Of a stretch of DNA of 64,000 nt, positions 95 to 15,353 are shown one piece after another (the first letter of the stretch is position 1; each line of letters starts with the position of its first letter). The notes below the pieces were generated by a model that had not been told where the DNA came from, made no database searches, and saw nothing but the letters and a program-made list of their open reading frames with translations. Both the position numbers and the translations under genes were made by a program. This DNA is from Bradyrhizobium sp. AZCC 2176 (lineage in GTDB: Bacteria; Pseudomonadota; Alphaproteobacteria; Rhizobiales; Xanthobacteraceae), in NCBI RefSeq assembly GCF_036924645.1, contig NZ_JAZHRX010000001.1:1860001-1924000 (forward strand), read 5' to 3'.

Positions 95-799
95 TTACAC
101 CGACACCGCGTAGAGTTCGTACTCCCCGCGCACCAGCTCGATATGGGCGCGCATCGCGGCCGCAGCACCCGACTTGTCGCCGCGCATGATCGCGACCACG
201 ACGCGGTCGTGTTCGGCGTGGGATTTCGCCAGCCGTCCGAGGTTGCGGAACTGGGCGCGGCGGAACGGCTGGACGCGCACCCGCGTCGCCAAGGTCATCT
301 CGGCGATGTAGCCGTTCTGCGAGCCGGCATAGATCGCGTTGTGGAAGCGCTCATTGACCTCGTGAAAGCGCTCGGGATTGCCGGCGTGGCTCAGCACCCG
401 CAATTCCTCGTGAATCCCTTCCAGCTTCTGGCGATCGGCCGGCGGCATCCGCTCGGCGGCGAGGCCGGCGCACAGCGCTTCCAGCTCCGCCATCGCCTCG
501 AACATTTCAGTCAAGCGATCCAGCGAGGGCTGCGCGACGACGGCGCCGCGATGGGCGCGGGCTTCGACTAGGCCGCTCGCCACCAATTGCCGCAGCGCCT
601 CGCGGACCGGCGTGCGCGACACGGAGAAGCGCCGCGCAATATCCGTCTCGTCGAGCGCCGAACCCGGCCGCAGCACGCCGCGCACGATCTCGTCGGCCAA
701 CTGCAGCCGCAGTTCTTCCGCGCGCGTGACCTTGTCGCGTTGCAATGACGGCCGATCGACGCGGCGAACCGTGGTTTCCGGGAGATCCTCCAGGCTCAT
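95..799 (-). CDS. GntR-family regulator with FCD ligand domain
   Basis: This 234-residue protein has an N-terminal winged helix (about residues 25-95, with the typical [13 protein letters not shown] recognition segment) and an all-helical FCD effector domain (about 100-225). FCD regulators are usually local repressors released by an organic-acid ligand. Its start codon overlaps the stop of the preceding HpxZ/AtzH-like gene in an ATGA arrangement. It is therefore the last gene of the transporter/amidase operon and very likely its regulator. A near-palindromic TTGCATACAA upstream of the operon (8541-8550) is a plausible operator. The ligand is unknown. Confidence 0.88.
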
Positions 800-1194
800 G
801 TCGCTTGACCCTGTGCTTCGTTGATGATGCTGACATGGGCGGCGACGACCTTCCAGCCATCGGCAAAGCGCACCCAGGTCTGCATCTGCCGTCCTACCTT
901 GCCGGGTAAGGATTCGGGATAGAACAGCGTCGAGGCGACGGCAGTGTCGCGGCCATAGGTCGTGATCACGGTCTTGTCGGTCCTGCGGCCGAGCCCGACC
1001 GGCGAGCGCGCCGCGCGAAACGCCATGATCTCCTCGTAGCCATAGAGATTTTCACCGACGCCGTAGCGCAGCGTGCGGGGATCGTTGCGGAACAATTCGT
1101 CGAGCACCGCAATGTCATTCGACACCAGCGCCTTTTCATAGCGCGCGAATTGCGCGGTGACTTCGGCCAGCACGTCGGGAAGATCGATCTCCAT
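796..1194 (-). CDS. HpxZ/AtzH-like SnoaL-fold protein (DUF3225 type)
   Basis: This 132-residue cone-fold (NTF2/SnoaL) protein belongs to the family of AtzH and HpxZ. Family members occur beside AtzE-type amidases in cyanurate/biuret breakdown and in the oxalurate/purine hpx loci. I start it at the ATG beginning [12 protein letters not shown]; a longer reading would overlap the amidase gene. The core contains [13 protein letters not shown] and the C-terminal strands [17 protein letters not shown]. It lies 2 bases after the amidase stop and overlaps the GntR start. AtzH acts on 1,3-dicarboxyurea, but whether this protein does is not shown by the sequence. Confidence 0.78.
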
Positions 1195-1196
1195 CG

Positions 1197-2600
1197 CTAC
1201 AATCCTCTCGGCGGCGGCGCAGCGGCAACGCCCATCTGTTCCAGCGCGTGCGCGACGCGCAGCGCAATATCCTCCCGCCACGGCGCAGCAATGATCTGCA
1301 CGCCGATCGGCATCGGCTCCAGCGGCACCGGCACTGCAACCACGGGCAGGCCGATGAACGAGATCGGCTGGGTATGGATGCCGATATTGGCGCGCACCGG
1401 CAGTTCGACGCCGTCGAGCACGAAGTTTACCTGCCCGAGCTTCGGCGCGATGCAGGGCGTGGCCGGCGCGATGATCACGTCGACCGATCTGAACAGCTCC
1501 AGTACCTTTGCGCGATACCAGCGGCGGAATTTTTGCGCGCGATCGACCAGTGGCGCCGGAACCATCGCCCCCGCAATCAGGCGGTCGCGCACCGCCGGAT
1601 CGAAATCGTTCGGACGCTTGCGCAGGCGGTCGAGATGCAGCGAGGCACCCTCGGTCGTGGTGATCACGTAAGCCGCAGCGCGGGCGCGCGCGGCCTCGGG
1701 AATTTCAATCGTTTGCGCGGCATTCAGCGCCTTGGCGACGCGTGCGACAGCCTCGACCGCTTCCGGGAAAACATTCTTCTGGAAATAACCGCCGGCCACC
1801 GCGACCCGCAAGCCGTCGATGCCCTGGGCCAGCCGCGAGGCGACCGGCTCAACCGGTCGCGTCGTGCAGGCCGCGTCATCGGCGTCAGGACCCTGCATGG
1901 CGTCATAGGCCAGCGCGAGATCGCCGACGCTGCGCGCGAACGGGCCGAGATGATCGAGGCTCGCGACAAAGGGAAACGAGCGCGCGCGCGACAGCCGGCC
2001 GTAGGTCGGCTTCAGGCCAAAGATGCCGCAGAACGACGACGGCACCCGGATCGAGCCGTTGGTATCGGACCCCAGGGCGATCGGAACGAGCGCACCGCCG
2101 ACTGCACTGCCCGAGCCACCCGAAGAGCCGCCGGTCATCCGCGTCGGATCGTGCGGATTGCGCGACGGGCCGTCATGCACATTCTCGCCCGTAAAATCGT
2201 AGGCGTATTCGCCCATGTTGAGCGCGCCGACCAAAACGGCGCCTTGAGCCTCCATGCCCTCGATCAGCGTGGCATCGCGCGGCGAGGCTGCGAGATCGCG
2301 GTTGATCTTCGAGCCGGCGCGGGTAGCGAGCCCCTTGACGTCAAAAAGATTCTTCACCGCGAACGGCACGCCGGCGAGCGGACCGATCTTCTGACCGGCG
2401 GCGACCTTGGCATCGATTGCTTTGGCCGTGGCACGCGCGCGATCCGCGGTGACATCGGTAAAGGAGTTCAGCACAGTATCGTGTTTGGCGATCCGCGCCA
2501 GTGCGGCTTCCGTCGCATCGAGCGCGGAAAGCTTGCGATCCGTTACGGCTTGCGCGATCTGTTGCGCCGACATTCCATCTGATTTCACGGTCACGGTCAT
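1197..2600 (-). CDS. AtzE-family amidase (amidase signature enzyme)
   Basis: This 467-residue amidase-signature hydrolase cleaves C-N amide-type bonds in the cytoplasm. The catalytic Ser-cisSer-Lys set is visible: Lys83 in FAVKNLFD, the GGSSGGS segment near residue 159, and the nucleophile Ser183 in [11 protein letters not shown]. The start at 2600 follows the upstream AtzG-like gene by 7 bases; an alternative start at 2642 would overlap that gene. AtzE works with AtzG as 1-carboxybiuret hydrolase, and the hpx homologue HpxY acts in oxalurate breakdown. The gene order AtzG-AtzE-HpxZ/AtzH supports one of these two chemistries, but the substrate cannot be chosen from sequence alone. Confidence 0.88.
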
Positions 2601-2607
2601 GGCGCCA

Positions 2608-2790
2608 TCACGCAATGTAGACGCTGGCCGGCTCGGTTTCATCCGGCAGCGGAAACTCGTCGACCAGCCGCGCCAGCCTCAGCGACACTTCGAGGTTCGC
2701 GCGTATGGCGGGACGCCAGGCTTCCTCGACCGGCAGCGCGAGCGCTTTCGCAACAGCGTCGATGTAATTATTCAGGGGGTCGGCAGCCAT
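2608..2790 (-). CDS. AtzG-like small subunit (DUF4089 type)
   Basis: This 60-residue, mostly helical protein (core IDAVAKALALPVEEAWRPAI, then LARLVDEFPLPDE) matches the AtzG/HpxX type. AtzG forms a heterotetramer with AtzE and is needed to stabilise the amidase, much as GatC does for GatA. It is the gene immediately upstream of the amidase, with a 7-base gap, and it follows the ABC ATPase gene by 18 bases. That position fits translation as part of one operon. Confidence 0.75.
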   Translation of the reverse strand: MAADPLNNYIDAVAKALALPVEEAWRPAIRANLEVSLRLARLVDEFPLPDETEPASVYIA

Positions 2791-2808
2791 TTCGCTCCCA
2801 CTCGATTT

Positions 2809-4608
2809 CTAGTGAACCGGCAACGGCGGATGCGGGATCGCCGTCAGCAATTCCTTCGTATAGGCATCCTGCGGATCGCCGAGCACGCGCTCGGATGTGC
2901 CCTGCTCCACGATTCGTCCCGCGCGCATCACGATGACACGATCGCACAGCAAACGCACCACATTCAGATCATGCGACACGAACAAATAGCTCATGCCCAT
3001 CGATTGCTTGAGATCCTGCAGCAGATTGAGCACCACCGCCTGAACCGAGACGTCGAGCGCCGCCGTCGGCTCGTCGAGGATCACGAGCTTGGGATGCAGC
3101 GCAATCGCGCGCGCGATGCCGACGCGGGCCTTCTGGCCGCCGGACAATTGGTGCGGAAAGCGATCGAGCAGGTTGACCGGCAGGCCGACCAGCCCGGCAA
3201 GCTCCTCGCAGCGGGCGCGCAAGGCGTCGCGGCCTTTGACATCGCCAAGCTGCAGAAGCGGATCGGCGATGGCTCGCACAGCGGTGAAGCGCGGGTTGAG
3301 GCTGTCGGTCGGGTCCTGGAACACCATCTGGATACTCTTGCGCAGCGGCAGCCGCGCAAATGCCTGCGGCAGGATGGCGCCGATCTCTTCGCCGTCGAAC
3401 AGGATGCGGCCGGAGGTCTGGTCGAGCAGACGCATCACCATCATCGAGGTCGTCGACTTGCCGCAGCCGGATTCGCCGACCAGGCCGACGCTCTCGCCAT
3501 GGCCGACGGTGAAGCCGATGCCGTCAACCGCGCGGAATATCGCGGCTTCGACCGGCGGCTTGCGGGAGAACAGTTTTGACAACACCGCGCTGGCGCCCTG
3601 GCGCGGATATTCCTTCACCAGCTTTTCGACGAGGAGGAGGGGCTTGGTGATGTCGTCACCCCCGGGCTTGACCCGGGGGTCCATCACTGAAGAAGAGCCT
3701 TCTGAAGAGTGATGGATGGCCGGGCATTGGCGAGCGGAAGCGACGCCGTTCTTCGGACGGCTATGCCCGGCCATGACAGGAGTCTCGTCCTCCGGCAGCA
3801 GATCCCGCAACGACACCCCGATCCTCGGCGTCGCGCGCATCAGTTTCTTGGTATAGGCGTGCTCGGGCCTGGCAAAAATATCCGCCGACTTCGCCGTCTC
3901 CACCACCCGGCCCTTTTCCATCACCACCACGCGGTCGCAATAGGCGGCGGCGAGCCCGAGATCATGCGTGATCAGGATCGTCGACATGTGCCGGCGCTTC
4001 GTTAGTTCCACGATCAGATCCATCACCGCCTTCTGCGTGGTGACGTCGAGCCCCGTGGTCGGCTCGTCCGCGATCAGGAGCTGCGGATTGCAGGCCAGCG
4101 CCAGCGCGATCACCACGCGCTGGCACATGCCGCCGGAGAGTTCGAACGGGTAGGCATGGTAGCGCTCGCGCGGGCGCGCGATCTTGACCTGCTCCAGCGC
4201 CTCGATCGCCTTTTCGCCGCGGTCGCTGGCCGCGCTCTGCACGTGCTGGCGCAGCACATCCTCGATCTGATCGCCCACTTTCCGGATCGGATTGAGTGCG
4301 GCGCGCGGGTTCTGAAAAATCATCGAGATTTCGCGGCCGCGCAGATCGCGCATCTCGTTTTCACTCGCGGCCTTGACGTCGATGCCGGAGAACATCACCG
4401 AACCGTCGGCGATCCTGCCGGCACGGTCGAGAATCCGCATCACGGCATACGACGTCACCGACTTGCCGGAGCCGGATTCGCCGACGATGCCGAGCGTCTC
4501 GCCCTTGGCCACGGAAATGTTGACGTGCTGCACGGCTTTCACGATGCCGCGTCGCGTGGTGAATTCGACGGTGAGATCGCTGACGTCGAGCAAAGGCTGG
4601 GCGGTCAT
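2809..4608 (-). CDS. Double ATP-binding subunit of a peptide/nickel-type ABC importer
   Basis: This 599-residue fusion carries two nucleotide-binding domains, equivalent to DppD plus DppF. Domain 1 has Walker A GESGSGKS, signature LSGGMCQR and Walker B LLIADEP. Domain 2 has GESGCGKST, LSGGQKAR and LVILDEP. It would power the two permeases encoded upstream. The start at 4608 has a GGAGG site; a start at 4647 lacks one. The linker between domains (about residues 277-318) is encoded by an interspersed repeat at 3658-3777 that keeps the frame open. That segment has no counterpart in typical family members and is probably a disordered insert. Confidence 0.9.
   Translation of the reverse strand: MTAQPLLDVSDLTVEFTTRRGIVKAVQHVNISVAKGETLGIVGESGSGKSVTSYAVMRILDRAGRIADGSVMFSGIDVKAASENEMRDLRGREISMIFQNPRAALNPIRKVGDQIEDVLRQHVQSAASDRGEKAIEALEQVKIARPRERYHAYPFELSGGMCQRVVIALALACNPQLLIADEPTTGLDVTTQKAVMDLIVELTKRRHMSTILITHDLGLAAAYCDRVVVMEKGRVVETAKSADIFARPEHAYTKKLMRATPRIGVSLRDLLPEDETPVMAGHSRPKNGVASARQCPAIHHSSEGSSSVMDPRVKPGGDDITKPLLLVEKLVKEYPRQGASAVLSKLFSRKPPVEAAIFRAVDGIGFTVGHGESVGLVGESGCGKSTTSMMVMRLLDQTSGRILFDGEEIGAILPQAFARLPLRKSIQMVFQDPTDSLNPRFTAVRAIADPLLQLGDVKGRDALRARCEELAGLVGLPVNLLDRFPHQLSGGQKARVGIARAIALHPKLVILDEPTAALDVSVQAVVLNLLQDLKQSMGMSYLFVSHDLNVVRLLCDRVIVMRAGRIVEQGTSERVLGDPQDAYTKELLTAIPHPPLPVH
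3658..3777. repeat. Interspersed repeat inserted in frame inside the ABC ATPase gene
   Basis: Three nested inverted repeats lie here: CCCCCGGG/CCCGGGGG, TCCATCACT/AGTGATGGA and GGCCGGGCAT/ATGCCCGGCC (3718-3727 with 3763-3772). The composition looks like the extragenic palindromes common in Bradyrhizobium. Here it lies wholly within the open frame, in the linker between the two ATPase domains. Confidence 0.8.
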
Positions 4609-4717
4609 GACGACCTCCGCAAAAATATCGAAAACAACCCCATGCAAAGTAGAACGGTCAGGACCCCTGTCGCATTCCCCTTGCGGGGGCCGAGACGAGC
4701 AAAGCTTGAGTCAACCA

Positions 4718-5617
4718 TCACGTCCTCCGCTGCGGATCGACGATGTCGCGCAGGCCGTCGCCGAGCAAATTGAAGCAGAACACCGCGATCATCAGCGCAA
4801 GCCCGGGGAACAGCGCGATCCACCATTCGCCCGAAACCATGAAGCCTGCGCCCTCCGCGACCATGATGCCCCATTCCGCCGTCGGCGGCCGCACGCCGAG
4901 CCCGATGAAGGAGAGCCCGGCGGCGTTGAGGATCGCATAGCCCATGGTCAGCGACATCTGCACGATCATGATCGGCATGATGTTGGGCAGGATGTGCACC
5001 AGCAGAATCCGCATTTCGCCGTTGCCCGACAACCGCGCCGCCTGCACGAAGCCGGCATCGCGGCGCACGTTCGCTTCGGCCCGCGCGACGCGCGCGTAGA
5101 GCGGAAAGTTCACGATCGCGGTCGCGATGATGATGTTCTGTACGGTATTGCCGAGCGCCGCCACGATGCCCATTGCCAGCACGAACAGCGGAAACGCCAT
5201 GATGGTGTCGGCGATGCGGCCGACGATGCGGTCGGTCCAGCCGCCGAAATAGCCGGCGGCGATGCCGGCAAGGCCCCCCATCAGGAACACCAGCGCCACG
5301 GAGGCAACCGCGATGAACGTATCGAGCCGCGTGGCGACGACGACGCGACTGAAAATGTCGCGGCCCAACTGGTCGGTGCCGAACCAGTGCGCCGCCGACG
5401 GCGGCTTCAGGGCTGACGCGGTATCGCTGGCGAGCGGATCGTAGGGCACGATGGTGGGGCCGAAGATCGCCGCGAACAGGATGATGATCAACAGGCCGAA
5501 AGCGAACGCCGTGACGCGGTTTTCGCCGAGCACGTAGCGGGTATGTTCGAAGACCGCAGCCAATCCCGAGGTACGTGCGGGACCGGCGGGTTCAACGGCA
5601 GGCGCAACGCTACTCAT
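4718..5617 (-). CDS. ABC importer permease, DppC type
   Basis: This 299-residue inner-membrane permease belongs to the peptide/nickel importer class. It has an N-terminal membrane segment (FAFGLLIIILFAAIFGP), the OppC-type PYDPLASD region, then five further hydrophobic segments. A conserved ATPase-coupling loop reads EANVRRDAGFVQAARLSGNGEMRIL. It pairs with the DppB-type permease whose stop lies 9 bases upstream. The 109 bases between this gene and the ATPase contain no other gene. The substrate is presumably the compound attacked by the AtzE-type amidase encoded downstream (inference). Confidence 0.9.
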   Translation of the reverse strand: MSSVAPAVEPAGPARTSGLAAVFEHTRYVLGENRVTAFAFGLLIIILFAAIFGPTIVPYDPLASDTASALKPPSAAHWFGTDQLGRDIFSRVVVATRLDTFIAVASVALVFLMGGLAGIAAGYFGGWTDRIVGRIADTIMAFPLFVLAMGIVAALGNTVQNIIIATAIVNFPLYARVARAEANVRRDAGFVQAARLSGNGEMRILLVHILPNIMPIMIVQMSLTMGYAILNAAGLSFIGLGVRPPTAEWGIMVAEGAGFMVSGEWWIALFPGLALMIAVFCFNLLGDGLRDIVDPQRRT

Positions 5618-5626
5618 GTTCCAACC

Positions 5627-6640
5627 TCACCCTTCCAGCCGCACGCGCGGATCGATTACGCCGTAGAGAATGTCGATGATCAGATTGAGCAGCACGTACA
5701 TGACCGCCATGGTCAGCACGAAACCCTGCACCGGCGCGAAGTCCGATGAGATCAACGCTTCCACCGCGTAGGAGCCGATACCGGGCCAGGCGAAGACTTT
5801 TTCGACCAGCACGTTGGCGCCCAGCAGGAACGAGAACACCATGCTGAGCGTGGTGATCACCGGCAGCATGGCGTTGCGAAACGCGTAGGTTACGATCACG
5901 GTCGACGGCGACAGCCCGCTGGCGCGCGCGGTGCGGACGAAGTCGGACGCCAGCACCGCCAGCATCGAGGCCCGCGTCATGCGCGCGATCGGCGCCAGCG
6001 AGAAGATCGCCAGCGTCGCCGCCGGCAGGATCATCTGGCTCAGCGCCGAGCGAAACGTCTCGAATTCGCGCGCAATCAGCGCGTCGATCAGATAGAGGCC
6101 GGTCACGGCCGGTGGCGCGCTGTAGAACACGTCGAGCCGGCCGAGCGGCGCCGGCGACCAGCCGAGCCTGAAATAGAAGACATAGACCAGCACGAGGCCT
6201 GTAAAGAACACCGGCAGCGATACGCCGGCCGTCGTGGTGACGCGGCAGAGATGGTCGATCCAGGAGCCCGGCCGGGTGGCGGCGAGCATGCCGAGCGGAA
6301 TCGCGATCGCGATCGAAACGACGAGGCCGAGCAGCGTCAGTTCGGCGGAAGCCGGCAGGCGGTTGCGGATTTCGGTCGCGACCGGCTGGCCCGTGGTCAA
6401 TGAGTTGCCGAAATCGCCATGCGCGAGATCGTTGGTGTAGCGCAGGAATTGCTCGATCAGCGGCTTGTCGAAGCCGAGTTTCTTGCGGATCTGCTCGATC
6501 GCTTCCTTGCTCGCCGCGGGCCCGGCGAAATAAGCGGCCGGGTCACCCGGCAGCGCGCGCGTCAGGAGGAATGTCACGATCACGACCCCGATCAGCGACG
6601 GGATCGCGAACATCAGCCGCTTGCCGATCATGGTCAGCAT
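5627..6640 (-). CDS. ABC importer permease, DppB type
   Basis: This 337-residue permease starts MLTMIGKRLMFAIPSLIGVV and has the family features: the DPAAYFAGP periplasmic region, five more membrane segments, and the coupling motif RTARASGLSPSTVIVTYAFRNA. Length and order match DppB/OppB/GsiC. It forms the importer channel with the DppC-type protein. About 120 bases separate it from the binding-protein gene, and these hold a repetitive GCGAATGG cluster. Confidence 0.9.
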   Translation of the reverse strand: MLTMIGKRLMFAIPSLIGVVIVTFLLTRALPGDPAAYFAGPAASKEAIEQIRKKLGFDKPLIEQFLRYTNDLAHGDFGNSLTTGQPVATEIRNRLPASAELTLLGLVVSIAIAIPLGMLAATRPGSWIDHLCRVTTTAGVSLPVFFTGLVLVYVFYFRLGWSPAPLGRLDVFYSAPPAVTGLYLIDALIAREFETFRSALSQMILPAATLAIFSLAPIARMTRASMLAVLASDFVRTARASGLSPSTVIVTYAFRNAMLPVITTLSMVFSFLLGANVLVEKVFAWPGIGSYAVEALISSDFAPVQGFVLTMAVMYVLLNLIIDILYGVIDPRVRLEG

Positions 6641-6668
6641 GGGGTGCGCTCCTTGCTCCGCAAGGAGC

Positions 6669-6760
6669 GCGCGAATAGCGAATGGCGAATGGCGAATAGA
6701 TATCCGCGGCCGTTCGTCACCATTCGCTGCTCCCTATTCGCTGGCCACTCGCCATTCGCC
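6669..6760. repeat. GCGAATGG/A tandem motif cluster with inverted copies
   Basis: Four GCGAAT(A/G)G units at about 6669-6698 face complementary CCATTCGC and CTATTCGC units at about 6720-6760. The RNA could fold into an imperfect hairpin. Its position between the binding-protein and permease genes of an ABC operon suits an element that sets their expression ratio (inference). Confidence 0.55.
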
Positions 6761-6763
6761 CGC

Positions 6764-8383
6764 TCACGCCTTTACCAGCGCGCGATAATCCAGACGCCGG
6801 TGGAACCAGTATTGATAGCCCGACACATTCTTCTGCATCGCGACGTTGACGTAGGGCTGATACAGCGGAATGCGCGGGATGTCCTTGAAGGCGAGATCGA
6901 CAAAACCTTTTACATCGGTGTCGTATTTGCTGGTGTTGCCGGTGGCCGCGGCGTCGACGGCGCCGCTGATGAATTCGTCCATCGCCTTCGACTGGTAGCT
7001 CATGGTGTTGAAGATCGAATTCTTGCCGTCGTAGCACCAGATGAAGAAATATTCGGGGTAGTCGAGCCAGCCGGAGAACACGTTGGTGTAGAGCGGCAGC
7101 ACCTTCTTGTTGAGTTCGGTGCGCCAGTTGGCGCCGGGGATCTTGTTGATGGTGGTCTTGATGCCGATCTGGGCGAGGCTCTCCTGCACCAGCACGCAGA
7201 GTGGTTCGTTGACGCCGGCAAAGCCGAGATCGAACGACAGCGTTGTCTCGAAACCGTTGGGATGACCGGCCTCCGCCAGCAGCGCCTTGGCCCTGGCGAT
7301 ATCGGTGACGTATTTGGTCGGCTGCGGCCACGCTACTTCGGTCGCCTTGTCGGCAGCGGCGCCGAACATTGGCTTGGCGAGACCGAACAGCACCGCATCC
7401 ATGATCTTCTGGTAGGGGATCGCGCAGGCGACGGCTTCGCGAACCTTGGGGTTGTCGAACGGCGGGATCTTGACGTTCATGCCGATATACTGGACGCCGT
7501 TGGAATACGGCACCGAGACGATGTTGAGCTTGCCGTTGTCCTTCAGCTCGACGAAATCCTTGTTCGGCAGATCGTAGGAGATGTCGGCATCGCCGCGCTC
7601 CAGGAGCGCGCGCCGGTTGCCGGCCTGCGGTACCATGCGCCAGATCACGCGCTTGACTTTCGGCATTGGGCCGCCAACCCAGGCGTCATTGCGCTCCATG
7701 ATGACTTCGGTACCGGCGGTCCACTTTGTCACCTTGTAGGCGCCGGAGCCCGCGGTCTGCTGCTTGGTGTATTCGAGTCCCCAGGGATCCTTCTCGGCGG
7801 CGTTCTTCTTCACCAGTTCCGAGTTGACGACGCAGGGCACGATGACCGCAAGGTCAGGAATCGTGAGACGGTCCTTCTTGGCGAAATCGACCCGCACGGT
7901 GTTGTCGTCGACGACGACGAACTGGTCGGTCTTGGTCAGAGAGCCTGCGCCCATCTGGAACGTCGGGAAACCACCGACGCTCACCGCGCGATCGAGCGAC
8001 CACTTGACGTCCTTGGCCGTGACCGGCGTGCCGTCGTGGAACGTGGCTTTCTTCTTCAGCTTGAAGGTGACCGACATGTCGCCGACGTTCATGTCCTCGG
8101 CGAGTTCGGGCTTGAACTTGTCGCGATCGTAATACGGCACGCCGCCCGGACCGCTCTTCATCTCGTGGCTGATCAGGCGGTCGTAGCAATTCCACGACAC
8201 TTCATAGCCGGGCACGTTGGTGCCGACGCCATGAATGTCGAGATTGTTGGGGCCGCTTTCCGAGACGATCAATAGCGTCTCAGACCGCGCATCAGCCTTG
8301 GCCGCGGACCAGATCGCCGGCGCGGGCACCATCGCGCCCGCGGCAACTCCGGTGACGGATTTCAGGAAATCGCGACGCTTCAT
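6764..8383 (-). CDS. Tat-exported solute-binding protein of the peptide/nickel-type ABC importer
   Basis: This 539-residue family-5 periplasmic binding protein begins MKRRDFLKSVTG. The twin arginine and hydrophobic stretch indicate Tat export. The start at 8383 is preceded by GGAG; an in-frame start at 8446 would add 21 residues with no role. Typical DppA/OppA features include LAEDMNVGDMSVTFKLKKKA and FHDGTPVTAKDVKWSLDRA. It is the first gene of the operon ending in the GntR regulator. The ligand could be a small amide or ureide rather than a peptide, judging from the amidase genes downstream. Confidence 0.9.
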   Translation of the reverse strand: MKRRDFLKSVTGVAAGAMVPAPAIWSAAKADARSETLLIVSESGPNNLDIHGVGTNVPGYEVSWNCYDRLISHEMKSGPGGVPYYDRDKFKPELAEDMNVGDMSVTFKLKKKATFHDGTPVTAKDVKWSLDRAVSVGGFPTFQMGAGSLTKTDQFVVVDDNTVRVDFAKKDRLTIPDLAVIVPCVVNSELVKKNAAEKDPWGLEYTKQQTAGSGAYKVTKWTAGTEVIMERNDAWVGGPMPKVKRVIWRMVPQAGNRRALLERGDADISYDLPNKDFVELKDNGKLNIVSVPYSNGVQYIGMNVKIPPFDNPKVREAVACAIPYQKIMDAVLFGLAKPMFGAAADKATEVAWPQPTKYVTDIARAKALLAEAGHPNGFETTLSFDLGFAGVNEPLCVLVQESLAQIGIKTTINKIPGANWRTELNKKVLPLYTNVFSGWLDYPEYFFIWCYDGKNSIFNTMSYQSKAMDEFISGAVDAAATGNTSKYDTDVKGFVDLAFKDIPRIPLYQPYVNVAMQKNVSGYQYWFHRRLDYRALVKA

Positions 8384-8540
8384 GGGTGATGCTCCAAACG
8401 CCTGAGGAAAATGGCTTTGGAACTGGAATCGCAAGGTTTGTGCCAATCCTTAAAGGAAAGCTAACCCTCACCTAAGATACTGATCTATCTAACGGATCGG
8501 CGATTCTCCGGAATTTCTCGGCAGTCGATTCGGACCTGGA

Positions 8541-8550
8541 TTGCATACAA
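8541..8550. promoter_or_regulatory. Candidate GntR-FCD operator
   Basis: TTGCATACAA differs by one base from the perfect palindrome TTGTATACAA, a form seen for FCD-type GntR operators. It lies about 160 bases upstream of the first operon gene. The remaining sequence from 8384 to 8622 shows no gene. Only one site is visible, so this is tentative. Confidence 0.35.
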
Positions 8551-8622: not shown

Positions 8623-9576
8623 TCAAATCGGCCAAAGCAAATCCTGCAATTCGAGGAGGTCAGCGGCCTTCTCTTGCCATCCCTCGATACAGACGTGCCT
8701 GACGGGATCGCTCGCCCGATGGAGCAGCATCAGCGCCATCAGCCGCCGCTTCAGGTCGGAATTGATCTCCGCGGCTGAATATCCGTACCCCACAAAAAGA
8801 CTTCGCACGCGACGCGGCATGCCGGCGGTCATGAAGGCGCTCGGGCCAAGCAGGTCATATTCGCCCCACCCGGTCATCACGTCGCCGAAATCGAACAGGC
8901 CCGCGAGGTGCCAGCGGTCGCCATCGCGCCTCAACAGGAAATTCTCCGGAATATATTCGCCGATCAGAATCACCGGCGGCTTGTCGAACGGAATGAGCGC
9001 CGCCGCATCGCGCAGCAATTCGTCCAGCCCATCCAGGAATTTCTGCGGCAATCCGAGGCGCTCGTGCCGGGCGCGGCATCCCGCGATTTGCCCTCGCATG
9101 AAACCGCCCCAGTCCGGCTCGATCCGGGCCAACGCGCCGATCGGGGCGCGCTGCACCTCGGCAACGGTCTCGCCGATTTCCGCCAGCACACGCTCCTTTT
9201 CCTGTTCCGGCAGAGACGGCCACGCTTGCGCGCCCAGGATGCCCGGCAGCCGCGTGATGACGAGATAGGGCCATCCGTCGCGCTCGCCTTCGGCGACGAT
9301 TTCGGGGATCGCGATCCGAAGCCGTCCGCGAAGCTGCGCGAGCGAGCCGCGTTCCGAGACGCATTGGGAACGAAGAAAGGGCGGGAAAATCTTCAGGATG
9401 AGTTTCTCGTCAAGCGCCATGACGACGTTGGTGCCGGTGGCGAAGACATGCGGTGCCGCGCACGCCAGGCCGTGGCTGCGGGCGATGTCGAGCGCGATCG
9501 GCACCCATTGCGCCGGCTCTTCGCGCCAGGCCCGGAAGGGCTCGTAATCTGTGAATGCCGGCAGTGATGCAGTCAT
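8623..9576 (-). CDS. APH-fold phosphotransferase-like protein with altered catalytic loop
   Basis: This 317-residue protein has the aminoglycoside phosphotransferase/choline kinase fold. A nucleotide-lobe lysine lies in EKLILKIF, and a metal-binding DFG is present in GLFDFGDV. The usual catalytic HGDxxxxN loop reads IGEYIPEN: the histidine and the catalytic aspartate are replaced by Ile and Glu, while the Asn is kept. It may be inactive, or it may use Glu as the base. The start at 9576 is preferred, because the upstream in-frame extension runs into an interspersed repeat. No resistance role should be assumed. It has no evident operon partner. Confidence 0.72.
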   Translation of the reverse strand: MTASLPAFTDYEPFRAWREEPAQWVPIALDIARSHGLACAAPHVFATGTNVVMALDEKLILKIFPPFLRSQCVSERGSLAQLRGRLRIAIPEIVAEGERDGWPYLVITRLPGILGAQAWPSLPEQEKERVLAEIGETVAEVQRAPIGALARIEPDWGGFMRGQIAGCRARHERLGLPQKFLDGLDELLRDAAALIPFDKPPVILIGEYIPENFLLRRDGDRWHLAGLFDFGDVMTGWGEYDLLGPSAFMTAGMPRRVRSLFVGYGYSAAEINSDLKRRLMALMLLHRASDPVRHVCIEGWQEKAADLLELQDLLWPI

Positions 9577-9597
9577 GGTGGCCTGACTTCGTTTGTC

Positions 9598-9679
9598 GTC
9601 ATTGCGAGGAGCGAAGCGACGAAGCAATCCATGTCTCCGCAAGTGGCGCCATGGATTGCTTCGCTTCGCTCGCAATGAC
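9598..9679. repeat. Interspersed palindromic repeat (GTCATTGCGAG family)
   Basis: The inverted arms GTCATTGCGAG...GCAATCCATG and CATGGATTGC...CTCGCAATGAC enclose a short loop. This is a pattern widespread between genes in Bradyrhizobium and related genera. It fills most of the gap between the APH-fold gene and the binding-protein gene and could form a strong hairpin at transcript ends. Confidence 0.8.
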
Positions 9680-9690
9680 GGAGAGGATGG

Positions 9691-11013
9691 CTATCTATCC
9701 GGGTTCGCCCGCTCGAACTGGCGCAGCAGGCGGTTGCCGCGCTCGACGGCGAGATCAAGCGCTGCCTGCGCGGACTGCTTGCCGCTGAAAACCTGCTCGA
9801 GTTCTTCGTCGATCACGCCGCGGATCAGCACAAAGGACCCAAGCCGGATTCCCTTCGAGTTCTCGGTCGGCGGCTTCAAGGTCAGTTGCTCGATACCGAT
9901 CGCCGCGCCGGGATCGCGATCGTAAAAGCCCTGTGCGCGGGTGAGGTCGAAGGCGGCGCGGGTGATCGGCAGATAACCGGTGTTCTGATGCCAGGCGGCC
10001 TGGACTTCCGGCTTCGAGAGATAGGCGAAGAATCGCGCGACGCCGGTGTATTCGGTACGCGGCCGGTCGCGCAGCACCCATAGGGTGGCGCCGCCGATGA
10101 TGGAGTTTTGCGGGGCACCGGCGATTTCGGGCCGGTACGGGACCATGCCGTAACCGACCTCGAATTTGGAATTGGCCTTGATGTCCGCGCGCGTCCCGGA
10201 CGAGCCGATGAAGATCGCACATTCGCCTTTTTGAAAGCGCGGCTCGGCAGATTGCCCGCGGCCGCCATAGTAGAAAACTTTCGTCGCCTGCCATTCTGCA
10301 AGCTGCGCGATGTGCCGCACCACGTCCTGGTTATTGAAAGTCAGCTCCGCATCGAGCCCGCCAAAGCCATTGGCCCGGGTCGCCAGCGGCAGATTGTGGA
10401 ATGCGGAAAAATTCTCGACATGGACCCAGGAGGGCCAGGAGGTGGTGAGCCCGCAGGGCGAACCGGCCGCGCGCAGGCGCTTCGCCGCAGCGCCGACCTC
10501 GGCCCAGGTCTTCGGCGCCACCTCCGGATCGAGACCGGCGGCACGGAACAGATCCTTATTGTAATAAAGGATCGGCGTCGAGACATTGAACGGGAACGAC
10601 AGCATGTTGCCGGCGACGTCGGAATAATAGCCGGTCACGGCCGGCAGATACGCCTCCGGCGCGAACGGCTCCGACTGGTCGCGCATCAATTCGTATACCG
10701 GATAGATCGCGCCCTTTGCCGCCATCATGGTCGCGGTCGCGATCTCGTTGACCTGAACGATGGCGGGCTGGCTTCGCGAACGGAATGCAAAGATCGCCGC
10801 TGTCACCGTCTCGGTGTAGTTGCCCTTGTAGGTCGGCACGATCCGGTAGTCGGCCTGCGACGCATTGAAATCGGCCGCCAGCTTTTCGAGCTGCTTGCCG
10901 AGTTCCCCCGACATCGCGTGCCACCACATGATCTCGGTGGCGGCCTGCGCCGGAGACGCAAGCGCGGTGGCGGCGAGCGCTGCGAATTGCAAGAATCTCA
11001 AGACCAATTTCAC
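9691..11013 (-). CDS. UgpB-like ABC solute-binding protein (orphan)
   Basis: This 440-residue family-1 extracellular binding protein is most like UgpB, the sn-glycerol-3-phosphate binder. It has a signal peptide (FLQFAALAATALASPAQA) followed by ATEIMWWHAMSGELGKQLEKL, and typical segments VNEIATATMMAAKGAIYPV and TGYLPITRAAFD. I start it at a GTG (11013) with AGGA upstream, because this gives a normal signal peptide; longer in-frame readings to 11067 or 11121 exist. No Ugp permease or ATPase gene is adjacent, so it must use a transporter encoded elsewhere. The 259 bases upstream show nothing definite. Confidence 0.85.
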   Translation of the reverse strand: MKLVLRFLQFAALAATALASPAQAATEIMWWHAMSGELGKQLEKLAADFNASQADYRIVPTYKGNYTETVTAAIFAFRSRSQPAIVQVNEIATATMMAAKGAIYPVYELMRDQSEPFAPEAYLPAVTGYYSDVAGNMLSFPFNVSTPILYYNKDLFRAAGLDPEVAPKTWAEVGAAAKRLRAAGSPCGLTTSWPSWVHVENFSAFHNLPLATRANGFGGLDAELTFNNQDVVRHIAQLAEWQATKVFYYGGRGQSAEPRFQKGECAIFIGSSGTRADIKANSKFEVGYGMVPYRPEIAGAPQNSIIGGATLWVLRDRPRTEYTGVARFFAYLSKPEVQAAWHQNTGYLPITRAAFDLTRAQGFYDRDPGAAIGIEQLTLKPPTENSKGIRLGSFVLIRGVIDEELEQVFSGKQSAQAALDLAVERGNRLLRQFERANPDR

Positions 11014-11272
11014 GGTGACTATCCTGCTCTGCCGCGCCGGCGATGTACCTGCTCGCCGCACCCTCATAAATCCCTCAGACCGCGGCTTCAATCCGCTCGG
11101 CATCACCGCAGCGCACAACACAATTTAAGATTGCAGCGAGATTATCAGTATTACCCACCGCATATCCCCCGCCAGCCCAGCCTTCAATAGCCAAACATCG
11201 GTAAATTCTGCTAAAAATGCGTTGAACCTTTTCTCCCCGCCGCAGACTCCATCTCTAAGGGGATTGTCGCCT

Positions 11273-13638: not shown

Positions 13639-15353
13639 TCGACGATACCGGAGTAGCTCCGGAGGACTCGTCCGCCCGCAAGTGGAAGATCGCCGTCATC
13701 GACGACGATGCCGCGGTGCACGAGGGCACCCGCTTTGCGCTGAGCGACTACAATTTGCACGGCGCGACGCTGGAAATCCTCTCCGCCTATTCCGCGGCCG
13801 AAGGCCGCACCTTGATGCGCGACAATCCTGATGTCGCGGCCGTGCTGCTCGATGTCATCATGGAAACCGACGTCGCGGGGCTGGAGCTCGTCGAATACAT
13901 CCGCAACGAGATCAAGAACGAAACCGTCCGCATCATTCTGCGCACCGGCCAGCCGGGACAAGCGCCCGAGCGCCGCGTCATCGTCCAGTACGACATCAAC
14001 GACTACAAGGCCAAGACCGAGCTGACGGCCGACAAGCTGTTCACCTCGCTCACCGCGGCGCTGCGCAGCTACCAGCAGCTCGAGCGCATGGTGCAGACCA
14101 GGCGCGGGCTTGAAATCATCATCGACGCCGCCTCGACGCTCTACGACTTCAAATCGATGCAGCGGCTTGCGGAGGGCGTGTTGACGCAGCTCGCCTCGCT
14201 GCTCAATGTCGACTGCGCCGGCATCCTGGTGCTGCGCGACGACGGCGCCTCGGGGAGCGAATTCTCGGTCCTCGCAGGCTCGGGCTGCTACAGCCGCTTT
14301 ATCGGCACCACGAGTTCGAAGGCGCTCGATCCGGATCTGCGGGTGATGGTGGAAGCCGCCTTCCAGCGCCGCAAAAACGAGTTCGCCGACCACCGCAGCG
14401 TGCTCTATTTGCGCACCGGAAGCGGTCGCGAAGTGGTGGTGCTGCTGCAGGCCGAGCGCCAGCTCTCCGACACCGATCGCGCGCTGGTCGAGATTTTCTC
14501 CAGCCGGCTGTCGATCGCATTCGACAACGTCATCCTCTACCGGCAACTGCACGAGGCCAATACCCAGCTCGAGGACCGCGTCGCCCAGCGCACCCGCGCG
14601 CTGATGCAGGCCAACCGAAGACTCTCGGCGCAGTGGCTGCGGCTGCAGCGCGCCAACGGCTTCAAGAACGAAATTCTCGGCACCGTCGCCCACGATTTGA
14701 AGAATCCGCTCGGCGTGATCCTCGGCCGCACCGAAATGCTGACCGAGCTGATCGGCGCCGGCTCGCCCAAGGAGAACGTCACCGCCCAGGTCGAGCATAT
14801 CCGGGACGCCACCAAGCGCCTGACCTCGATGGTCGATCACCTGATTTCGGATGCGATGGCGGATGCCTTCGACATCACCATCCGTCGCGAACCGGTCGAT
14901 ATCGCAGCGCTCGTGACCGAGGTCGCCGATTCCAACCTGCCCTCGGCGGTCAACAAGCAACAGGCCATCACCGTATCCGCCCCGCCGAATATCGTCACCA
15001 TGTGCGATGCCGACCGGATCCGCGAGGCGATCGACAACCTCGTCAGCAACGCCATCAAATACTCGCCGATCGGCGGCAAGATCACGGTGGCCGTTGCCCA
15101 TGAGGGCGGCGACACGGTGATCCGAATCGCCGACCAGGGCGCCGGCCTTTCGCCGGAGGATCTCGGCCGGCTGTTCGGCCGCTTCCAGCGGCTCTCGGCC
15201 AAGCCGACGGCCGGAGAAAGTTCGACCGGCCTGGGACTGTCGATCGTCAAACGTATCATCGACATGCATGGCGGCCATGTCACCGCCGATAGTGCCGGCC
15301 CCGGACAGGGATCGACGTTTACCGTTACACTGCCTGCGACAGAAACGACATGA
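13608..15353 (+). CDS. Hybrid receiver - DUF3369 - histidine kinase
   Basis: This 581-residue cytoplasmic protein has a receiver domain at the front (about 25-150, acceptor Asp82 in VLLDVIMETD). A DUF3369/GAF-like segment follows (about 165-310). Then come a coiled coil, a HisKA domain with His362 in TVAHDLKNPLG, and an ATPase domain ending in STGLGLSIV. The receiver-before-kinase order suggests it receives phosphate from the upstream kinase and passes output to the OmpR-type regulator downstream. No membrane segment is present. Its stop overlaps the next start (ATGA). Confidence 0.92.
   Translation: MAEQDDVLHLIDDTGVAPEDSSARKWKIAVIDDDAAVHEGTRFALSDYNLHGATLEILSAYSAAEGRTLMRDNPDVAAVLLDVIMETDVAGLELVEYIRNEIKNETVRIILRTGQPGQAPERRVIVQYDINDYKAKTELTADKLFTSLTAALRSYQQLERMVQTRRGLEIIIDAASTLYDFKSMQRLAEGVLTQLASLLNVDCAGILVLRDDGASGSEFSVLAGSGCYSRFIGTTSSKALDPDLRVMVEAAFQRRKNEFADHRSVLYLRTGSGREVVVLLQAERQLSDTDRALVEIFSSRLSIAFDNVILYRQLHEANTQLEDRVAQRTRALMQANRRLSAQWLRLQRANGFKNEILGTVAHDLKNPLGVILGRTEMLTELIGAGSPKENVTAQVEHIRDATKRLTSMVDHLISDAMADAFDITIRREPVDIAALVTEVADSNLPSAVNKQQAITVSAPPNIVTMCDADRIREAIDNLVSNAIKYSPIGGKITVAVAHEGGDTVIRIADQGAGLSPEDLGRLFGRFQRLSAKPTAGESSTGLGLSIVKRIIDMHGGHVTADSAGPGQGSTFTVTLPATETT

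Follow-up and report, generated by a model that had tools for sequence, protein, structure and literature searches.

The amidohydrolase AtzE is described as a carboxybiuret hydrolase and AtzH as a likely dicarboxyurea decarboxylase, and the AtzH paper, in its available text, left open what role atzG-atzE-atzH clusters have apart from cyanuric acid breakdown, which they possibly pre-date in its authors' view (PMC6219798). The triuret hydrolase TrtA yields carboxybiuret according to the available portions of PMC7948467, which also remark that AtzEG hydrolyses this compound in the cyanuric acid pathway of Pseudomonas sp. ADP and propose oxidised uric acid as a triuret source. For ammonia oxidisers, trtA, biuH and atzH are listed together in the abstract of PMC12625717, and its accessible main text speaks of atzF. 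Here, we analysed a 64,000-nucleotide stretch of Bradyrhizobium sp. AZCC 2176 (hereafter the window; G000:C1:1860001-1924000, within a 7.15-Mb single-contig genome), in which an eight-gene operon joins the AtzG, AtzE and AtzH (HpxZ) families to a peptide-type ATP-binding cassette (ABC) importer and a GntR-FCD regulator.

From gene content, linkage and upstream motifs, we consider it likely that this operon encodes the importer together with the middle enzymes and regulator of a nitrogen-controlled triuret (polyurea) scavenging pathway, in which TrtA, AtzGE, AtzH and AtzF would act in this order. TrtA, encoded elsewhere in the genome, would convert triuret to 1-carboxybiuret and ammonia, and AtzGE would strip the terminal amide of 1-carboxybiuret to give 1,3-dicarboxyurea and ammonia. 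AtzH would then decarboxylate 1,3-dicarboxyurea to allophanate, and AtzF would convert allophanate to ammonia and CO2. The genes would form three transcription units (importer-AtzGEH-GntR, atzF and trtA-permease), each with a predicted sigma-54 promoter and responsive to nitrogen limitation, and GntR-FCD is the likely pathway-specific regulator. Triuret, biuret or a related ureide is our guess for the import ligand. The operon comprises the following features, in window coordinates:

95-799, minus strand: GntR-FCD regulator, the operon's last gene (PF00392 and PF07729)
796-1194, minus strand: AtzH/HpxZ-like protein, proposed 1,3-dicarboxyurea decarboxylase yielding allophanate (NF033625, 198 bits, cut-off 135)
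1197-2600, minus strand: AtzE, proposed 1-carboxybiuret amidohydrolase (NF006631, 745 bits, cut-off 461)
2608-2790, minus strand: AtzG-like small AtzE partner of 60 residues (PF13318, 2e-17; 6c62 chain C, E=0.006)
2809-4608, minus strand: fused OppD-OppF importer ATPase (two ABC_tran stretches)
4718-5617, minus strand: OppC-type permease (BPD_transp_1, OppC_N)
5627-6640, minus strand: OppB-type permease (BPD_transp_1 and an N-terminal domain)
6764-8383, minus strand: family 5 solute-binding protein, SBP_bac_5 (PF00496, 260 bits)
8431-8445, minus strand: putative sigma-54 type -24/-12 promoter of the operon (match to TGGCAC-N5-TTGC)
8541-8550, minus strand: operator-like motif TTGTATGCAA (match to TTGTAYRCAA)

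Scans of open reading frames (ORFs) and profiles confirmed the eight minus-strand genes in the order of the original prediction, with tight spacing at the 3' end: OppDF and AtzG are 18 bases apart, AtzE ends 2 bases ahead of the AtzH start, and AtzH and GntR overlap by 4 bases, where the starts of AtzE, AtzH and OppDF were moved inward from the mechanical ORFs to an internal ATG as a judgement call. AtzG, AtzE and AtzH are adjacent, with AtzE and AtzH above their model cut-offs and AtzG as a PF13318 match, and the view of a single uptake-and-hydrolysis unit built on this trio is supported. AtzG, reportedly the subject of a JBC paper of 2018, is present in a single copy in the whole genome. AtzE scores 489 bits to 6c62, and the alignment shows conserved Lys/Ser/Ser motifs, which we take to be those of the amidase signature. 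In AtzH, the alignment to 6bjt shows that Tyr22 and Arg46 of Pseudomonas ADP AtzH are conserved; these residues, numbered as in PMC6219798, are Tyr19 and Arg43 from the gene's own start, as read from the paper's primer. For the solute-binding protein, the nearest solved chain is YliB (1uqw) at 130 bits only, and ligand prediction from solved relatives is uninformative. Copies of GntR with 52-65% identity are located near AtzH/TrtA genes that carry a different importer. The linker of the fused ATPase contains an insert-like stretch between the two halves (window 3652-3744), with a motif that resembles a widespread repeat. Linker lengths span 39 to 82 residues among the relatives in which the search pattern matched (13 of 40).

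The absence of AtzF noted in the original prediction is true only inside the window. A full-length allophanate hydrolase AtzF is encoded by the ORF 1858051-1859970, convergent with the operon, whose stop codon falls 30 bases short of window base 1 (Amidase and AH_C domains; TIGR02713, 805 bits, cut-off 511). The gap between AtzF and GntR is 124 bases (about positions 13971-14094 of locus L009) and holds, as read by eye, a seeming inverted repeat, possibly a two-way terminator or a repeat element. HpxZ is found in 142 of 146 Bradyrhizobium genomes, and 40 loci were fetched from a sample of 45 genomes with an HpxZ match on contig C1, mostly complete and some in 2-10 contigs. AtzF lies next to the operon in all 40 loci. 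The comparison of gene order that had been proposed along with the original prediction found it kept in 39/40, which rules out a chance assembly, and the importer is likewise present in 39/40. Since other flanking genes are also conserved in the genus, synteny at this level says little alone.

The genome encodes seven isochorismatases, one of which (G000:C1:407971-408747) is closest to TrtA. It scores 283 bits with 6XIX and 279 with 6XJ4, compared with 236 for 6AZO and 226 for 6XJM; the first two entries are triuret hydrolase and the last two the biuret hydrolase BiuH in the available text of PMC7948467, the source of the TrtA residues as well. Asp24, Lys129, Cys162 and Gln202 are conserved, as is the TrtA-type Ala134, which is Ser in BiuH 6AZO. 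No isochorismatase in the genome exceeds the BiuH cut-off of 370, the best being the TrtA gene itself at 262 bits and the domain stretches of the other six scoring at most 61. A 552-residue permease-like protein adjoins TrtA (406.3-408.0 kb in this genome; L149:6313-7971), and TrtA lies directly upstream of it in 79/80 loci fetched by the permease, the 80th starting at a contig edge. One relative (L199) has 12 hydrophobic segments. The family gave no Pfam match up to E=10 for three members and no NCBIfam match at 1e-20 for one member, the predicted structure has a mean pLDDT of 36, and the gene is annotated as a 'regulator' in Terrarubrum and Paroceanicella; the protein may be a triuret or ureide permease.

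In four genomes that gave no AtzE match, TrtA is separated by 23-74 bases from an AtzH-family match (G172:C1:83971-85022, G383:C20:32211-33282, G263:C14 and G307:C40), and AtzH may there decarboxylate carboxybiuret itself. In addition, a 270-residue protein resembling 5-FTHF_cyc-lig lies near AtzH in 16/60 order-level loci (L097, L099, L105 and others), and in 11 of these it separates AtzE from AtzH. This protein is possibly TrtB, the carboxybiuret decarboxylase reportedly defined by Aukema and others in 2020.

TrtA and AtzE also occur together beyond this genome. At the order level, among 249 genomes, AtzE is found in 63, TrtA in 68 and both in 52 (p=2e-28, or 6e-25 without the genus of the window), at a TrtA threshold of 247 bits that was chosen after the scores had been seen. 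When genomes are collapsed to genera, 25 of the 27 genera with AtzE also have TrtA and 11 have TrtA alone (p=3e-14). The two genes are physically linked as well: AtzE and TrtA are at most 10 kb apart in 30 of the 52 genomes, all on the same strand, and these belong to 12 families. Within Bradyrhizobium, a TrtA orthologue is present in 138/146 genomes, all four HpxZ-less genomes lack it, and four more have HpxZ without it (Fisher 4e-6), a value weakened by relatedness and completeness, since the eight TrtA-less genomes are among the smaller assemblies (3.5-5.5 Mb).

The arrangement of the three units varies among relatives. In G015 (L065), G101 (L186) and G127 (L187), a TrtA-permease-AtzF run is convergent to GntR-AtzH-AtzE; the whole importer operon is visible in L065 and L186, and L187 starts inside AtzE. 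In G048 (L185), TrtA-AtzF occupies the corresponding place behind the operon. Because such runs exist behind the operon in some members of the genus, it appears that trtA-permease and atzF have become separated in most Bradyrhizobium genomes, that of the window included. Family f31 contains both a single cluster TrtA-permease-importer-AtzG-E-H-GntR with AtzF convergent (G309, L184) and a genome in which TrtA-permease-AtzF stand together, apart from AtzGEH (G375).

The three units share upstream elements. The pattern TGGCAC-N5-TTGC, which we take to be the -24/-12 consensus of sigma-54 promoters, has a single match in the 64-kb window (0.15 expected), 62 bases before the ATG of the binding protein. 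In relatives, it lies upstream of the binding-protein gene in 40/42 (the other two differ by one mismatch), of atzF in 40/46 and of trtA in 15/17, and upstream of the internal permease gene in 0/14. Across the loci around these genes, 1.0 Mb in all, 95/98 matches fall on the predicted promoters of the binding-protein gene, atzF or trtA, and 46/2280 random 310-base windows of the same loci contain the pattern, true promoters included. An operator-like repeat overlaps the -24 element of atzF and trtA, with an identical 20-mer at both in the genome of the window; within four mismatches, this 20-mer is found in 39/46 atzF and 15/17 trtA upstream regions, compared with 4/570 random windows (true sites included). 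The 15-mer TGTACACAATGGCAC is located upstream of 40/46 atzF and 14/17 trtA genes, and five of the six atzF genes without it sit downstream of a trtA that bears it. The related element TTGTATGCAA is the sole TTGTAYRCAA match in the window (0.04 expected) and stands at a similar place upstream of the binding-protein gene in 38/39 genus loci. When upstream regions are aligned, the sigma-54 and operator-like blocks are the main conserved islands. Order-level loci with the window-type GntR contain 10 motifs in 327 kb (17 loci, 7 bearing a motif), against 4 in 817 kb for the 43 loci without it, and several of these motifs are upstream of Bmp importers. We infer that GntR-FCD may bind TTGTAYRCAA-type sites, and predicted sigma-54 promoters on all three units lead us to expect a response to nitrogen limitation.

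The composition of the unit was compared in 60 order-level HpxZ loci, of 64 above the cut-off. AtzE is carried by 41/60 (13 families), and near those 41 we found TrtA in 23, a Bmp-Nup-type fused ATPase in 24, AtzF in 12, the window-type GntR in 12 and the window-type Opp importer in 4. The same core thus goes with three importer types, namely the peptide type, Bmp-Nup and the 552-residue permease that lacks a Pfam match. Terrarubrum flagellatum has importer-TrtA-permease-AtzF-AtzG-AtzE-AtzH on one strand, Microvirga ossetica AtzH-AtzF-TrtA-permease-AtzE, and Paroceanicella profunda TrtA-permease-AtzG-AtzE with AtzH divergent. Azospirillum sp. B510 has TrtA, BiuH and Bmp-Nup beside AtzH, AtzE and AtzF, and Salipiger profundus has the importer, two BiuH-like genes and AtzGEH-GntR. 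In Methylobacterium aquaticum and Roseomonas mucosa, the importer accompanies AtzE and AtzF, and TrtA is absent from the stretch; likewise, two Paraburkholderia plasmids and one Novosphingobium plasmid carry AtzE and AtzH, with no TrtA in the stretch. A peptide-type importer was rejected as a defining part of the system, since Bmp-Nup or another permease surrounds the same core elsewhere and G009 has lost the importer.

A tree of 79 AtzE sequences was labelled by neighbouring genes, with labels resting on flanks of about 10 kb or less and the TrtA label given precedence. Because the flanks are short, the absence of a label may be wrong, as for L127 with TrtA 8.0 kb away. AtzE of the window falls in a supported group of 20 rows (97/87), of which 6 are TrtA-linked, 1 is AtzD-labelled and 13 are unlabelled. 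AtzE of plasmid pADP-1 groups with the AtzD-linked AtzE of a P. putida plasmid and the TrtA-linked L168 of G404 (100/99). The TrtA label requires 4 changes on the tree against a shuffled mean of 13.7, and is therefore clustered, not confined to one clade.

The original prediction reasoned from missing genes that the imported compound may itself be a carboxylated urea, oxamate or a similar amide. Since AtzF adjoins the operon and TrtA would make the AtzGE substrate, this reasoning falls; trtA is encoded in the genome, has promoter and operator sequences in common with atzF, and in relatives shows linkage to the trio. However, besides the late choice of the TrtA threshold and the weakened genus statistic, several observations weigh against the triuret pathway. 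The TrtA gene is 1.45 Mb from the operon in the genome of the window. At the 247-bit threshold, 11/63 AtzE genomes lack TrtA, and 16/68 TrtA genomes lack AtzE. In a larger set of 79 trtA genes, the exact sigma-54 pattern is present in only 62. In Acidithiobacillus caldus, AtzGEH is accompanied by AtzD- and HpxW-type genes, and as AtzE there is 59% identical, sequence alone does not fix the substrate. One genus locus (L064 of G009) has also lost all four importer genes and retained AtzGEH, GntR and AtzF.

One alternative is that AtzGEH act on a different acylurea or ureide, taken up through the peptide-type importer, with TrtA and AtzF as co-regulated genes of parallel nitrogen scavenging. A candidate permease accompanies TrtA, and the peptide-type importer may therefore carry something else; this importer is conserved almost throughout the genus loci, and in G196 (family f52) it occurs along with AtzGEH and AtzF, with no TrtA detected. 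We nevertheless consider this alternative improbable, since TrtA and AtzE are linked in 30 genomes of 12 families, with three importer kinds among the loci seen, and the product of TrtA is the known substrate of AtzE.

A supply of carboxybiuret by AtzD from cyanuric acid, as in Pseudomonas sp. ADP, is very unlikely. AtzGEHF is indeed the ADP set, and AtzD-family genes occur in 89/146 genus genomes, where they could feed the same AtzGEH. Nevertheless, the model that finds these genes gives none in the genome of the window, so that the absence of AtzD remarked on in the original prediction extends to the whole genome by profile search, and the cyanuric acid route is rejected for this strain. Furthermore, the 32 AtzD/HpxZ pairs of the genus that share a contig are at least 319 kb apart, and only one AtzD label (L121) appears among the order-level AtzE loci of the tree, where the TrtA label takes precedence.

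The conversion of oxalurate to oxamate by AtzGE and AtzH, suggested by the naming of HpxZ for that pathway and by a chemistry that would suit (terminal amide removal, then decarboxylation), is scarcely credible and was rejected, since no HpxW-type gamma-glutamyltransferase turned up in the scan of ten window ORFs plus upstream ORFs (no search for HpxW extended to the remaining genome), and the HpxW-linked AtzE of family f92 form a separate clade (11 rows, 100/100). In f92, an HpxW-type gene stands beside AtzE in 11/11 loci, as in the published Enterobacteriaceae arrangement, and TrtA is near none of them, with a TrtA-like gene on a separate contig in G618. The link to hpx oxalurate loci drawn in the original prediction thus fits this other clade and not AtzE of the window.

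Two neighbours upstream of the operon have no part in these readings. A UgpB-type glycerol-3-phosphate binding protein gene (window 9691-11121, 568 bits) is a neighbour in most genus loci and has no evident tie to the proposed pathway. Between it and the operon, the N-terminus of an APH-family ORF (8623-9675) overlaps an inverted-repeat element (window 9571-9680) with a second genome copy at L044, and the true start of this ORF is probably further in.

The triuret pathway proposed here offers a testable answer, through a single substrate, to the question of what atzG-atzE-atzH clusters do outside cyanuric acid breakdown. It would add a second middle route to triuret degradation, one that uses the unstable carboxybiuret before its decay to biuret, and it points to a use of oxidised uric acid by root-nodule bacteria under nitrogen starvation. 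It also suggests a role of AtzG-E-H before their adoption by herbicide degraders. We see even chances for a wider view, in which triuret catabolism, in Alphaproteobacteria and Burkholderiales, is the older of the roles of AtzGEH(F), importers (peptide-type, Bmp-Nup, 12-segment permease) were swapped around a fixed core, often under sigma-54 and GntR control, and the atrazine-era cyanuric acid operon arose by AtzD replacing TrtA. Such a replacement is conceivable because both enzymes make 1-carboxybiuret, and pADP-1 AtzE groups with both TrtA-linked and AtzD-linked AtzE.

Each enzyme type is already known, and the association of AtzGEH with AtzF and transporters is in print in general terms. 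As far as we found, the new elements are TrtA as the point of entry, the way it is spread along with AtzGE, and a sigma-54/operator architecture common to three separate transcription units that ties them together. The available texts of PMC6219798, PMC7948467 and PMC12625717 contain no link between AtzGEH clusters and TrtA, and the combination of these enzymes with its regulation was not found in the literature searched, to the extent that it was accessible; the papers defining TrtB and AtzG lie outside this coverage, and an earlier mention there is possible. Two nodule transcriptome studies of Bradyrhizobium mention, in their accessible portions, an allophanate hydrolase gene (PMC6321122, PMC9927569).

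Among described systems, atzDGEHF of pADP-1 in Pseudomonas sp. ADP (PMC6219798; L151) shares with the window the AtzG, AtzE, AtzH and AtzF families, the AtzH catalytic residues and the AtzE motifs. In contrast to it, the system of the window lacks AtzD, with TrtA as the proposed source of carboxybiuret, and is chromosomal, near-universal in its genus, provided with a peptide-type importer in the operon and preceded by sigma-54 type promoters. In the Enterobacteriaceae hpx-type cluster ggt-atzG-atzE-atzH (section 14 of PMC6219798, as available), the trio belongs to the same families, whereas an HpxW-type enzyme takes the place of TrtA and AtzF, and AtzE is of a separate clade. The Burkholderiales atzG-atzE-atzH clusters described in that section likewise combine the trio with AtzF and ABC transporter genes; their atzF is on the same strand, and the accessible text names no substrate, TrtA or regulation for them. 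The triuret pathway of Herbaspirillum, TrtA-TrtB-BiuH-AtzF (PMC7948467), and that of ammonia oxidisers with bmpA-nupABC (PMC12625717) resemble, in the parts available, the pathway proposed here in having TrtA first, AtzF last, and a GntR gene and an ABC importer nearby. Unlike these, the Bradyrhizobium system has AtzGE and AtzH in the middle, no isochorismatase above the BiuH cut-off, and an importer of the peptide type instead of Bmp/Nup.

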